From Lentisphaerota bacterium (GTDB lineage Bacteria > Verrucomicrobiota > Kiritimatiellia > PWTM01): DNA of 32,069 nt. Numbering within the stretch: the stretch's first letter is position 1; the number at the start of each line of letters is the position of its first letter. Below are positions 15,199 through 31,502 of the stretch, piece after piece. A program made the position numbers and the translations under genes. The notes beneath the pieces were generated by a model. That model saw only the letters and a list, made by a program, of their open reading frames with translations, searched no databases and was not told the DNA's origin. The stretch is from contig VGWF01000052.1 in assembly GCA_016873715.1 (NCBI GenBank), positions 1 through 32,069 on the forward strand. The letters run 5' to 3'.

Positions 15199-15321
15199 GG
15201 TTCGCAGGTTCACAGGTTCAGAGGTTCCGCGTTGGTTGTTGGATGTTGGGTGTTGGTTGTTGGATGTTCGATGTTCGGTGTTCGATGTTCGGTGTTCGCT
15301 TTTCGCTGTTCGATGTTCGCA
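15199..15321 (+). repeat. 8-bp then 7-bp period array abutting a start codon
   Basis: The spacer starts with an 8-bp period (AGGTTCGC, AGGTTCAC, AGGTTCAG, AGGTTCCG). From 15231 there are 13 contiguous heptamers: five GTTGGNT units, then GTTCGAT, GTTCGGT, GTTCGAT, GTTCGGT, GTTCGCT, TTTCGCT, GTTCGAT and GTTCGCA. The last base of the last unit is the A of the next gene's ATG (15321). No Shine-Dalgarno is present. Confidence 0.9.
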
Positions 15322-17109: not shown

Positions 17110-17197
17110 GAGTGTCGAGTGGCCGGTGTCGAGTGTCGCAACCCGCACATTGGGTTTTTGGTATTGGATGTTGGATGTTGGATGTTGGATGTTGAAT
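17110..17197 (+). repeat. Two short heptamer arrays upstream of the GH105 gene
   Basis: GAGTGTC, GAGTGGC, CGGTGTC and GAGTGTC (17110-17137) are followed, after about 25 bp, by ATTGGAT, GTTGGAT three times and GTTGAAT (17163-17197). The final unit supplies the GTTGAA -35 box of the next promoter. Confidence 0.8.
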
Positions 17198-19242: not shown

Positions 19243-20073
19243 ATGAAGACCATCCGCGCCGCCGACGACATCCGCTACCGCCGCATGACCACCGACGAGA
19301 TGCGGGGGCATTTCCTGATTCCCGGCCTTTTCCGCCCGGGCGCGGCGGAGCTGGTCTACACGGACGTCGACCGCGCGGTCGTCGGCGGACTCGTTCCGAC
19401 CACCGCCCCGCTTCGGCTCGAGGGCGGGCGCGAGATGGCCTGCACCCACTTCTGCGACCGGCGCGAGGCGGGCGTGCTGAACCTCGGCGCGCCGGGGACC
19501 GTCACCGTGGACGGCCGCGCCTTCCGCATGGCGCCTCGCGAGTGCCTCTACATCGGCCGCGGCAGCCGCGAGATCGTCTTCGCGAGCGACGGCCCCGCCG
19601 CCCCGGCGCAGTTCTACCTGCTCTCCTACCCCGCCCACGCCGCGCATCCGACGGCGCACGCCGGCATCGACAAGGCCAACCGCGTCGAACTGGGATCGGC
19701 GAAGGACGCCAACCGCCGCACGATCTTCCAGTTCATCCACGAGAAGGGCATCCCGAGCTGCCAGCTCGTCATGGGCTTCACGGAACTCCACGAGGGCAGC
19801 GTGTGGAACACCTACCCGCCCCACACCCACGACCGGCGCACCGAGGTCTACTGCTATTTCGACCTGCCCGCCGGCGGCGCGGTGCTGCACCTCTTCGGCC
19901 GGCCCGAGGAGACGCGCCACCTCGTCGTGCGCGAGAAGGACGCCGTCCTCTCCCCGCCCTGGTCCATCCACTCCGGCGTCGGCACCGGCGCCTACCGCTT
20001 CGCCTGGGGCATGGGCGGCGAGAACCAGGTGTTCGACGACATGGACAAGGTGGGAGACGGAACCTTGAAGTGA
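19243..20073 (+). CDS. kduI: 5-dehydro-4-deoxy-D-glucuronate isomerase
   Basis: KduI isomerises 5-keto-4-deoxyuronate (DKI) to 3-deoxy-D-glycero-2,5-hexodiulosonate (DKII) in uronate breakdown, in the cytosol. The 276 residues match the usual length. The cupin zinc site is visible: PPHTHDRRTEVYCYFD gives His194, His196 and Glu201, and WSIHSGVG gives His243; the ending AYRFAWGMGGENQVFDDMD is conserved. The ATG lies 1 bp after the GH105 stop, so the genes are probably co-translated. Its partner kduD is 614 bp away, separated by an inserted four-helix-bundle gene and two arrays. Confidence 0.96.
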   Translation: MKTIRAADDIRYRRMTTDEMRGHFLIPGLFRPGAAELVYTDVDRAVVGGLVPTTAPLRLEGGREMACTHFCDRREAGVLNLGAPGTVTVDGRAFRMAPRECLYIGRGSREIVFASDGPAAPAQFYLLSYPAHAAHPTAHAGIDKANRVELGSAKDANRRTIFQFIHEKGIPSCQLVMGFTELHEGSVWNTYPPHTHDRRTEVYCYFDLPAGGAVLHLFGRPEETRHLVVREKDAVLSPPWSIHSGVGTGAYRFAWGMGGENQVFDDMDKVGDGTLK

Positions 20074-20160
20074 ACGCCGAACACCGAACATCGAACACCG
20101 AACGGGGAGCGGCGGAGTCAACATCCAACCTCCAACGTCCAACAACCAACATCCAACAGC
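20074..20160 (-). repeat. Heptamer array in reverse orientation, left of the four-helix-bundle gene
   Basis: ACGCCGA, ACACCGA, ACATCGA, ACACCGA (from 20074), a non-repeat spacer, then CAACATC, CAACCTC, CAACGTC, CAACAAC, CAACATC and CAACAGC (20119-20160). Read on the minus strand this is a GTTGGNT block followed by a GTTCGNT block, the same order as at 15231 and 22918. It starts right after the kduI stop and ends 1 bp before the next gene's start codon. Confidence 0.85.
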
Positions 20161-20161
20161 C

Positions 20162-20575
20162 TTGAAGGCGGTGTTTGATCTGGGCGAGCGGCTCTTGAAC
20201 TATGGAGCCGCGGTCATCCGCGTCTGCAATCAGGTGCGTCCTTCCCGGGCAGGCCAGCACGTCGCAGATCAGCTGCTGCGTGCCGGGACGTCGCCGCTCT
20301 TCAATCATGGGGAGGCCGACGCAGCCGAATCGCCGGCTGACTTCGTTCACAAGATGTCGATCTGCCTGAAGGAACTCCGCGAGTCCCGCCGCGCACTTCA
20401 ACTCATCCGGCGCGTCCCACTGGTCGACAAGTTCGAGCCGGTCGACGATCTCCTTTCCGAGACCGAGGAGTTGATCCGCATCTTCTTCACGAGTATCCGC
20501 ACGGCGAAGTCCAAGGTCCTTCGGGAACCCGGCGCAGACTACGTCACGCCGCCGGACACCGGAGGCTCCGATTGA
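20162..20575 (+). CDS. Four-helix bundle protein (23S rRNA-intervening-sequence / S23 family)
   Basis: The TTG at 20162 gives 137 residues; a GTG at 20171 is an alternative and neither has a good ribosome site. The FDLGERLLNYGAAVIRVCNQV opening, HVADQLLRAGTSPLFNHGEADAAESPADFVHKM and LKELRESRRALQLI match the small four-helix-bundle family first described from 23S rRNA intervening sequences, to which the Avd accessory protein of diversity-generating retroelements is related. Such proteins form pentameric basic barrels and are thought to bind nucleic acid; the function is unknown. It interrupts kduI and kduD, is flanked by heptamer arrays in opposite orientation and looks less GC-rich than its neighbours, which suggests a mobile cassette. 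Confidence 0.85.
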   Translation: MKAVFDLGERLLNYGAAVIRVCNQVRPSRAGQHVADQLLRAGTSPLFNHGEADAAESPADFVHKMSICLKELRESRRALQLIRRVPLVDKFEPVDDLLSETEELIRIFFTSIRTAKSKVLREPGADYVTPPDTGGSD

Positions 20576-20609
20576 ATCCGTCCTTGGGCTGGCGTTCGAT
20601 GGCTGCATC

Positions 20610-20679
20610 GTTGGATGTTGGGTGTTGAATGCTCGGTGTTGGATGGTGGATGTTGGCTGTTGGATATTGGATGTTGAAA
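20610..20679 (+). repeat. Heptamer array in forward orientation, right of the four-helix-bundle gene
   Basis: Ten contiguous units: GTTGGAT, GTTGGGT, GTTGAAT, GCTCGGT, GTTGGAT, GGTGGAT, GTTGGCT, GTTGGAT, ATTGGAT, GTTGAAA. The last unit plus the next GGA forms the AAAGGA ribosome site of kduD. Confidence 0.88.
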
Positions 20680-20687
20680 GGAAACCA

Positions 20688-21460
20688 ATGATTCTGGAGC
20701 AGTTCTCTCTGGGCAAGCGCGTGGCCCTGGTCACCGGCGCCGGCCGCGGTCTCGGGCAGGGCATGGCGCTCGCACTCGCCGAGGCGGGGGCCGACGTGGC
20801 GGCGGTGGATGTGATCGACTGCGCCGACACCGCGGCGGCCCCGCGGCGCAGATCCGCGCGATGGGCCGGCGGTGCGAACCGATCGCGGCGGACCTGACCG
20901 CGCCGGGCGCGCCGGCGAAGGCCGTCGAGACCGCGGTCGCCGCCCTCGGCCGGCTCGATATCCTCGTCAACAACGCCGGGATCATCCGCCGGACCGACTT
21001 CCTCGACTTCTCCGAGAAGGACTGGGACGACGTGATGAACCTCAACATCCGCGCGGTCTTCCTGCTCAGCCAGGCCGCCGCGCGGCAGATGGTGAAGCAG
21101 GGCGGCGGCGGCAAGATCGTCAGCGTCGCCTCGATGCTCTCGTTCCAGGGCGGCATCCGCGTGCCGTCCTACACCGCGTCGAAGAGCGGCGTGATGGGCC
21201 TGACCCGCCTGATGGCCTGCGAGCTGGGGCCGAAGGGCATCCAGTGCAACGCGATCGCGCCGGGCTACATGGCGACCGACAACACCGTCGCGCTGCGGGC
21301 GGACGAGAAGCGCAACGCCGCGATCCTCGAGCGAATCCCGGCCGGGCGCTGGGGCACGCCGGACGACCTCAAGGGGACGGTCGTCTTCCTGGCCTCCCGG
21401 GCCTCCGACTACGTCAACGGCTACACGATCGCGGTGGACGGCGGATGGCTCGCGCGATGA
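20688..21460 (+). CDS. kduD: 2-dehydro-3-deoxy-D-gluconate 5-dehydrogenase (frameshifted in this sequence)
   Basis: KduD is a short-chain dehydrogenase that reduces DKII to 2-keto-3-deoxygluconate with NAD(P)H, the step after KduI. It has the Rossmann motif TGAGRGLGQG, NNAGIIRR, the catalytic Ser and YTASK (Tyr-x-x-x-Lys), and a C-terminus SDYVNGYTIAVDGGWLAR nearly identical to known KduD. Frame is lost near 20838-20848. Removing the 11 bases there, a near-copy of the preceding ACCGCGGCG, rejoins the frames and gives exactly 253 residues colinear with Escherichia coli KduD as I recall it. So an 11-bp insertion or assembly error is likely. AAAGGA lies 5 nt before the ATG. The stop overlaps the next ATG (ATGA). 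Confidence 0.92.
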
Positions 21461-22899: not shown

Positions 22900-22917
22900 C
22901 CGGATTGGATGCCTGAC

Positions 22918-23021
22918 GTTGGGCGTTGGCTGTTGAGTCCTCCTGTTCGGCGTTCGGTGTCCGTCGTTCGGTGTTCGATGTTCGATGTTCGATGTTCGGT
23001 GTTCGATGTTCGGTGTTCGCT
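22918..23021 (+). repeat. Composite heptamer array upstream of the sulfatase gene
   Basis: GTTGGGC, GTTGGCT, GTTGAGT, then CCTCCT, then 11 contiguous units: GTTCGGC, GTTCGGT, GTCCGTC, GTTCGGT, GTTCGAT three times, GTTCGGT, GTTCGAT, GTTCGGT, GTTCGCT. The GTTGG block precedes the GTTCG block, as in other arrays here. Confidence 0.9.
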
Positions 23022-23082
23022 GTCCCCTTTGGGGTTTCCGCCATCCGTCCGATCGCCTACAGTCGCCCCCGGAGGCTTGCGC

Positions 23083-25065: not shown

Positions 25066-26158
25066 GGCGCCCCGGAGCCGGCCGCCGCGCCCCCGCCCAC
25101 CGGCGGCAGGAGCCGCGCGGCGAGCGCGGCCTTGAAGGCCTCGACGCCGTCGCCCGTCGCGGCGGCCATTTCCACCGGCGTCACGCCGGTCCGCACGACG
25201 AACTCCCGGAGGAACTGCGCCGACTCGGGCACGTCCATCTTGTTCGCGACGGTCATGAACCCGCGGTCCGCGAGATCGCGGCTGTAGAGCTCGAGCTCGC
25301 GGCGGAGGCTGAAGTAGTCGTCCGCCGGGTGCCGCCCGTCGGTGCCGGCCATGTCGATCAGGATCACGAGGAACTTCGTGCGCTCGATGTGCCGCAGGAA
25401 GTCGTGGCCGAGGCCGACGCCCTGGTGCGCCCCGGCGATCAACCCGGGGATGTCGGCGATGCGGAGCGTCCGGTAGTCGTCGTACTCGATGATGCCGATG
25501 TTCGGGTGGAGCGTGGTGAACGGGTACGGGGCGACCTTCGGGCGCGCCCGGCTCACGCGGCCGATCAGCGTGGACTTCCCGGCGTTCGGGAAGCCGACGA
25601 GGCCGATGTCCGAGATCAGCTTGAGCTCGAGGCGCAGCTTCCGCTCCTCGCCCTCCTCGCCCGGCGTGCACTCGCGCGGCGCCTGGTGGGTCGAGGTCTT
25701 GAAGTGCATGTTCCCCAGGCCGCCCTTGCCGCCCTTGGCGCCTGGTGGGTCGAGGTCTTGAAGTGCATGTTCCCCAGGCCGCCCTTGCCGCCCTTGCCGA
25801 CCACGAGCGTCTGGCCGGGCTCGAGGATCTCGCCGATCCACTCCTCGGACTGCAGGTCCGTCACCTCGGTGCCGCACGGAACCTTGATGAGACAGTCCGC
25901 GCCGGCGTGGCCGTACTGCTGCTTGCCGCGGCCGGGCTCCCCCGGCTGCGCGCGATGGTTGGGCTGGTAGTAGAGATGGAGGAGCGAGTCGACGTCCTTG
26001 TCGCCGACCAGGATCACGTCGCCCCCGCGGCCCCCGTCGCCGCCGTCCGGCCCGCCGTACGGGACGAATTTCTCGCGCCGGAACGTGGCAACCCCGTTGC
26101 CGCCCCCGCCGGCGCGCACGTGGATCTGCACGCGGTCGATGAAGGTCGGGGCTTTCAT
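25062..26158 (-). CDS. obg: GTPase Obg (frame broken by a 59-bp tandem duplication)
   Basis: Obg (CgtA) is a ribosome-associated GTPase needed for 50S assembly and usually essential. The N-terminal glycine-rich Obg fold ([31 protein letters not shown]) is followed by the G domain with [25 protein letters not shown] and NKMD. Frame is lost inside [21 protein letters not shown], where 25678-25736 is repeated exactly at 25737-25795. Removing one 59-bp copy gives an intact 345-residue protein of normal length. Because the gene is usually essential, an assembly artefact or a minority variant is more likely than a fixed mutation. It sits downstream of rplU and rpmA as in most bacteria. Confidence 0.94.
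25678..25795. repeat. Exact 59-bp tandem duplication within obg
   Basis: The block 25678-25736, starting GGCGCCTGGTGGG, recurs without a mismatch at 25737-25795. 59 is not a multiple of 3, so it breaks the frame. Confidence 0.95.
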
Positions 26159-28236: not shown

Positions 28237-28260
28237 CCCGGACGGCGAAAGGCCCCCGAT

Positions 28261-28540
28261 CCGGCCATCACCCCGCGCAGGATCGGCGGTGGCCCCGCAG
28301 GGTGGTCATCACGCTCCGCGTGATGACCATCCGGATTGTGGAGATGTCCTCACGCGGAGCGTGAGGACTACGTTGGCGCCCGCCCCTCCGGCCATCACCC
28401 CGCGCAGGATCGGCGGTGGCCCCGCAGGGTGGTCATCACGCTCCGCGTGATGACCATATCCGGATTGTGGAGATGTCCTCACGCAGAGCGTGAGGACTAC
28501 GTTGGCGCCCGCCCCCGGCCGTCACCCTGCGCAGGACCGG
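28261..28540. repeat. REP-like tandem units with paired hairpins (two full, one partial)
   Basis: Unit 1 (28261-28387) and unit 2 (28388-about 28514) are nearly identical; a third (28515-28540) keeps only the head CCGGCCGTCACCCTGCGC. Each full unit has hairpin A (stem GGTCATCACGC, loop TCC; 28304-28328 and 28431-28455) and hairpin B (stem GTCCTCACGC, loop GGA in unit 1, AGA in unit 2; 28346-28368 and 28475-28497). B is the reverse complement of A with a compensatory A-T to C-G stem change. Unit 2 has 2 extra bases in the linker. This fills the 410-bp gap between cdd and the PQQ gene; no ORF is supported there. Confidence 0.85.
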
Positions 28541-31176: not shown

Positions 31177-31502
31177 CACTCCCCGCAGGCAGGAAGGGCA
31201 AGTGTCAGGTGTCGAGTGTCGGGGAGGAGGAGTTCCGGGCCTTCGCCCTCCGCTCTCCGCCCTTCGCTCTCCGCTCTCCGCTCTTCGCTCTGTGCTCTCC
31301 GCTCTCCGCTCGCGCGGCGGGCGGGCGCCTGGATTCGGGCGGTCGCGGCAGGGAATTCTCGACGACGGGGCACGCCCCGGTCCGCCTGGGGGCAGTCGCA
31401 GGCGCAGCCGCCGCCCGCGCTCGGGCGCACCTCGCGTCGGATCGAGACCACGGCGTACGCCAGGGCCCCGACCACCAGCAGCGCGATCACGATCGTTTCC
31501 AC
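31149..31502 (-). CDS. Possible small Cys-rich membrane protein whose 3' end is made of a heptamer array
   Basis: From a GTG at 31502 the first 18 residues ([18 protein letters not shown] if GTG is read as Met) form a membrane helix, followed by a basic stretch and GGGCACDCP. That order resembles the FeoB-associated Cys-rich membrane proteins, usually 50-70 residues. Here the frame stays open through the array at 31200-31316, giving a repetitive tail ([21 protein letters not shown]) and 117 residues in all. Either the array replaced the original 3' end or the gene is a chance ORF. A TAGGGT sits 8 nt before the GTG. Confidence 0.35.
31200..31316 (+). repeat. Composite heptamer array upstream of the superoxide dismutase gene
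   Basis: AAGTGTC, AGGTGTC, GAGTGTC (31200-31220), then a linker with GGGGAGGAGG, then 11 contiguous units (31240-31316) such as CCTTCGC, CCTCCGC and TCTCCGC (five of these). The GTGTCGGGGAGGAGG at the first junction is identical to 15 nt on the minus strand of the array at 9702-9860. Confidence 0.85.

Follow-up and report, generated by a model that had tools for sequence, protein, structure and literature searches.

Positions 20070-20678 of the analysed DNA (a stretch of 32,069 nucleotides, hereafter the window) were interpreted as a small mobile element, in which one gene for an S23/Avd-type four-helix-bundle (FHB) protein lies between terminal inverted repeats built of heptamers, and which has non-autonomous, REPIN/MITE-like copies without the gene (probability of approximately 0.7). 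The initial annotation had noticed this gene between inverted arrays inside a kdu operon and had proposed a candidate mobile cassette. The observation was confirmed, and the proposal was supported and came through the attempts to refute it.

The host operon is devoted to uronate and sulfated-glycan catabolism and encodes GH88, KduI, a KduD-like short-chain dehydrogenase, and a sulfatase. As had been proposed, kduI (KduI/IolB family, PF04962 match; 19243-20073, plus strand) and the kduD-like gene (20688-21460, plus strand) are split by a single S23/Avd-like FHB gene, which matches PF05635 and TIGR02436, occupies 20162-20575 on the plus strand, and encodes 137 aa. The inverted orientation of the arrays was likewise reproduced, with bounds now placed at 20070-20158 (minus) and 20609-20678 (plus). 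The left array overlaps the kduI stop codon, and the right array ends approximately 10 bp ahead of the kduD start. Both are composite, with TTGG-type units inside and TTCG-type units outside; in the left array, the two blocks are separated by a linker. Within them, an in-register inverted repeat was delimited, the left arm of which (20118-20158, 41 nt) is 85% complementary to the right arm (20637-20677, 41 nt). The FHB gene starts close to the left array as described, but the distance is 3-12 bp, depending on whether TTG at 20162 or GTG at 20171 is used, rather than 1 bp. The GC content of the gene region was 0.61 against approximately 0.70 in its surroundings, which bears out the lower GC content reported for it. 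No Rfam match was found within 19900-20900. The kduD-like gene lies in two frames near 20840-20880, where its homologue in genome G013 (L072) reads through; this frameshift marks either a pseudogene or a sequence error in the MAG. Other tandem repeats of the window are a perfect 59-bp duplicate (25678-25796), a 127-bp unit in 2.2 copies (28260-28540), and a CGCTCTC heptamer array (31244-31311).

The encoded protein belongs to the S23/IVP four-helix-bundle family, both by profile and by fold. It scored 37.9 bits against PF05635, above the curated cut-off of 33.8, and 70 bits against TIGR02436. The AlphaFold2 model has four helices (pLDDT 88.9), and Foldseek placed 2RLD and 2GSC nearest to it, followed by Avd (4dwl, TM 0.79; 8ub7, TM 0.76; normalised by target). 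Pfam and TIGRFAM profiles detected no transposase domain in the protein, and we know of no transposase motif or catalytic site for this fold. Relatives of the protein are oligomers. As judged from substitution ratios, FHB genes are under purifying selection (dN/dS of 0.02-0.18 for most gene pairs and 0.32 for one).

The window arrays have many relatives in the genome. The 21-mer of three TGTTSGR units (up to 3 mismatches) matched 1350 times, while the reversed control matched 5 times; the window arrays are thus not a product of chance. The motif is patchy across the class. A sample of 819 kb contained 71 arrays, most of them intergenic. Neighbouring pairs were head-to-head in eight cases and tail-to-tail in one, with loops of 51-177 bp except for the 451-bp loop of the window, which holds the FHB gene; no other pair of head-to-head arrays of the motif in that sample encloses a loop of gene size. 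Three dispersed arrays without a gene lie on the plus strand in operon gaps of the window itself, two with the flavour of the cassette (15223-15320 and 17155-17196) and one a TTGG/TTCG composite (22917-23027). When the ten PF05635 genes of the genome were scanned with the TGTTSGR motif, the window gene alone was bracketed. The view of the window as a lone case was dropped once flanking repeats were scored with no assumed motif, since the repeat flavour differs from element to element and a single-motif scan therefore made the window look unique.

The motif-free flank test, in which an inverted-repeat score of at least 20 was taken as positive, detected flanking inverted repeats at 144 of 193 unique FHB loci in many phyla, compared with 3/171 and 2/177 background pairs (5/348). 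The excess of arrays at other FHB genes that the initial annotation had called for is therefore present. It holds outside the class, in Bacteroidota, Desulfobacterota, Planctomycetota, Balneolaeota, Cloacimonadota, and others (60/76 against 2/177), and scores were also above background within the class. The closest FHB relatives (50-64% identity, many families) are bracketed, and relatives in which no array had been apparent have arrays with a different sequence. Repeat units are mostly 7 bp long, with 8 bp in some clades. Beyond shared flavour, the order of units was in register at 85 of 135 loci (p ≤ 0.05). The median element spans 524 bp, and its left outer end lies a median of 9 bp past the upstream stop codon. 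Approximately one quarter of the FHB loci, including six of the ten in this genome, have no clear inverted repeat.

Several local features were seen beside these elements. In genus g38 (L143, L150, L294-L313), the arrays are of octamers rather than heptamers, and the inner motif GAACTACGAAGTGGGG is conserved. An extra outer motif, CATAAGCGCTAA(C/G)(C/T)T, accompanies FHB elements of Desulfobacterota and of one planctomycete (L201, L225, L234, and L236), with an inverted copy on the right side in L225, L234, and L236. In genus g89 (L277, L279, and L292), a dispersed leader-like repeat (CCCATGAAACAATTTGCACG...CTCTGCGTAGGGG) adjoins the elements.

Plasmids of Cyanobacteria and Chloroflexi carry FHB genes inside cas2-cas1, csx2-cas1, drmD-pglX, helicase-methylase, and DUF1156-HEPN loci (L363, L365, L366, L369, L370, and L371). 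FHB proteins could accordingly be working parts of host operons, for example in CRISPR adaptation or in DISARM/BREX, given their position between cas2 and cas1 or between drmD and pglX and the listing of the 23S rRNA IVP among adaptation-module associations in a CRISPR survey (PMC10910872). This was judged to be very unlikely because the operons that host FHB genes are unrelated in function and most of these plasmid copies lie between inverted heptamer arrays. The score reached 20 in seven of ten plasmid genes, strong 7-bp periodicity was present on both sides in eight of ten, as in the (ATTCGTA)n arrays of Nostoc, and arrays bound FHB genes on Nostoc, Dolichospermum, and Planktothrix plasmids. 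As most copies in CRISPR and defence loci are bounded in this way, the reported CRISPR association of the S23/IVP family may reflect insertion.

The initial annotation had also suggested a relation between the protein and the arrays, and support for it came from co-variation. The flavour of the left and right repeats was similar within a locus (cosine 0.59), compared with 0.10 between loci and 0.09 between different FHB elements of one genome. Across families, FHB protein identity was correlated with flavour (Mantel rho 0.535; permutation maximum 0.199). These sequence comparisons show that repeat flavour is tied to the FHB clade, not to the host, although simple co-inheritance would produce such a correlation as well, and it is not by itself proof of binding.

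Gene-less arrays with the flavour of the resident FHB element are dispersed by the hundred in genomes, many of them as short palindromes. The octamer CGAACAKY, which flanks FHB genes in G324 and G325, matched 208 and 99 times in these two genomes, respectively, and at most twice in 32 other genomes. The link between resident FHB and dispersed arrays held for two more flavours (pattern P1, p = 2e-5; pattern P2, p = 5e-4); for P2, genomes G176 and G180 are rich in arrays yet have no matching FHB in the sample. The dispersed units of G324 are palindromic, being made up of (GAACAKYC)n-GAACTACGAAGTGGGG, a variable loop, and an inverted copy; FHB cassettes share this pair of arms, but their loop contains the gene. 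In congeners, the corresponding gene pairs lack four of the dispersed units that occupy operon gaps. These units bear on the idea that the arrays are ordinary simple-sequence repeats produced by replication slippage, with the FHB gene between two of them by chance. Several bacteria have an excess of heptamer repeats, for which slippage was proposed (Mrazek 2007, as related in PMC4679880). Such an origin is highly improbable here: the inverted repeats of matching flavour at FHB loci in many phyla already contradict it, and it does not fit the head-to-head bias of 8 vs 1, the defined palindromic units with their conserved inner motif, or the presence and absence of units between congeners.

The arrays might instead be moved in trans by another transposase, a RAYT or an IS, with the FHB gene as cargo or regulator. 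REPINs closely resemble the dispersed units (PMC3116915), and these genomes commonly encode PF01797 (Y1/RAYT-type) transposases. However, the number of PF01797 genes was unrelated to the number of array matches (rho -0.03), and heptamer arrays were present at 0 of 17 testable PF01797 loci. The genome richest in arrays (G000) has just three weak PF01797 matches, and G104 and G233 have none. Neither counts nor loci thus supported a RAYT as the partner of the arrays, and flavour tracks the FHB gene; the transposase comparison covered PF01797. Mobilisation in trans is accordingly considered improbable, though less so than slippage or a host-operon role.

The mobility proposed for the cassette was corroborated by near-identical copies with different flanks. 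One genome (G183) has three copies with 88-90% identity confined to the element, and L277 and L279 share 97% identity across 698 bp but lie in differing contexts. Cassettes with 83-94% identity are common to MAGs of different families and phyla, with homology mostly stopping near the array ends. Those of L231, L240, and L245, from MAGs of Neomarinimicrobiota, Cloacimonadota, and Armatimonadota, are 85-87% identical. Misbinning is a possibility for several cross-phylum pairs, the MAGs of which stem from a single project. The suggested comparison with empty sites was also informative: in G013 and G033, kduI and kduD are paired with no FHB gene between them, and close FHB relatives occupy unrelated sites, so the cassette is not fixed at kduI-kduD across distant species. 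The FHB-free gap of G013 (L072, near 2325-2375) holds a short hexamer array (GATTAM). In L286-L288 (genera g99 and g86), an FHB element lies beside or within an AAA-type ATPase gene, part of which is missing. A clear target-site duplication was not found among the G183 copies, L277/L279, L286-L288, or four congener sites. The four congener empty sites have diverged by 17-33% from the filled ones and show no clear duplication; at this divergence, neither a duplication nor an exact junction is definable. The boundaries of L277 are blurred by the dispersed leader repeat of genus g89. A phage vehicle was considered and rejected, as phage records gave no match and only three weak viral contigs were found.

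FHB elements are biased to sense insertion in operons, as the upstream gene was on the same strand in 144 of 150 cases, compared with 263 of 332 for other genes. The bias may reflect a need for host transcription or for an RNA step. An element acting only at the RNA level, like an rRNA intervening sequence (IVS), would also account for it. In such a case, the stem of the arms in the polycistronic mRNA would be cut, for example by RNase III, so that the insert is insulated, and the FHB protein would bind or protect RNA and not serve as a mobility factor. S23 ORFs are located in 23S rRNA IVSs with complementary ends that are excised by RNase III (PMC4990558), and the predicted minimum-free-energy structure of the cassette RNA has the arms paired (z -4.1). 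Mismatches compatible with G.U pairing were slightly in excess (389 vs 322, p 0.013), but when counted by locus, the asymmetry lacked significance (61 vs 45, p 0.14). Moreover, two cyanobacterial copies are antisense to cas1/cas2, and the hundreds of dispersed gene-less palindromes are not explained by an RNA-level role alone. We regard this as unlikely, although it is the strongest of the alternatives.

Under the mobile-element reading, the element would have inserted in sense into the kduI-kduD gap, from the kduI stop codon onward, and presumably owes its transcription to the host operon. The FHB protein may recognise the folded arms as single-stranded DNA or as an RNA hairpin and enable them to be copied or inserted, possibly in concert with a host polymerase, reverse transcriptase, or nuclease. 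The protein itself would in that case move the repeats, through DNA or RNA. The other TGTTSGR arrays of the genome would then be non-autonomous relatives of the REPIN/MITE kind, either copies or remnants, that share the ends of the element but lack its gene.

A wider reading, to which we give slightly less than even odds, is that S23/Avd-type FHB proteins are dedicated dispersal factors of tiny pan-bacterial mobile elements with iteron-like inverted ends of 7- or 8-bp units. Unexplained heptamer repeats, such as cyanobacterial STRRs and the Xanthomonas GGGAATC repeats, would be gene-less offspring of these elements, and the same class of insertion would include rRNA IVSs and the FHB genes located in CRISPR/DISARM loci. 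If this is true, a protein family with solved structures (2RLD and 2GSC) but little known function outside retroelements gains a role, bacterial heptamer repeats that have been unexplained for decades gain an origin, FHB genes counted as CRISPR- or defence-associated are recast as insertions, and a mobile-element class with no recognised recombinase becomes testable. Direct tests are feasible, since such loci occur in cultured hosts (Flavobacterium, Nostoc, and Anabaena).

The window element falls outside the definitions of the rRNA IVS, REPIN-RAYT, and diversity-generating retroelement (DGR) systems. S23 ORFs of rRNA IVSs have been called selfish and horizontally acquired, and lie in inserts of approximately 430 bp with complementary ends that form a stem (PMC4990558). 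The window element shares the S23-family ORF and the complementary stem-forming ends with the IVSs of Leptospira and Coxiella. However, it lies between kduI and kduD instead of in a 23S rRNA gene, its ends are heptamer arrays, and it has many sites and hundreds of gene-less relatives in the genome. With DGRs, it shares the fold common to Avd and the window FHB protein; a scan of the eight operon genes and the flanks revealed no reverse transcriptase family, and no template or variable repeats were recognised at the window locus. Terminal inverted repeats are shared with insertion sequences and MITEs, whereas the protein has the S23/Avd fold in place of a transposase.

REPIN-RAYT systems combine a protein gene flanked by inverted repeats with many dispersed, gene-less intergenic inverted doublets (PMC3116915). 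Dispersed inverted doublets of the repeats that flank the partner gene are present here as well, but the sole gene encodes a PF05635 FHB protein, not a Y1 (HUH) tyrosine transposase, and the arms are tandem arrays of 7-8 bp units, unlike the short REP palindromes of REPINs. The element, as an FHB gene with its repeats, was described nowhere in the open-access PMC literature searched; its parts were already known, and the link between FHB genes and heptamer arrays appears to be new within that literature. Heptamer arrays have been described with no proposed partner gene in Xanthomonas and Nostoc (PMC4692102) and in Beggiatoaceae, where TAACTGA arrays lie near gene starts (PMC4679880). For X. 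campestris, 186 GGGAATC arrays with 70 inverted pairs have been reported (PMC4692102), and the solved FHB protein XCC0516 (2GSC) comes from this species as well. Like these heptanucleotide repeats and the cyanobacterial STRRs, the arrays reported here are dispersed and intergenic, but they differ in that they bound FHB genes.
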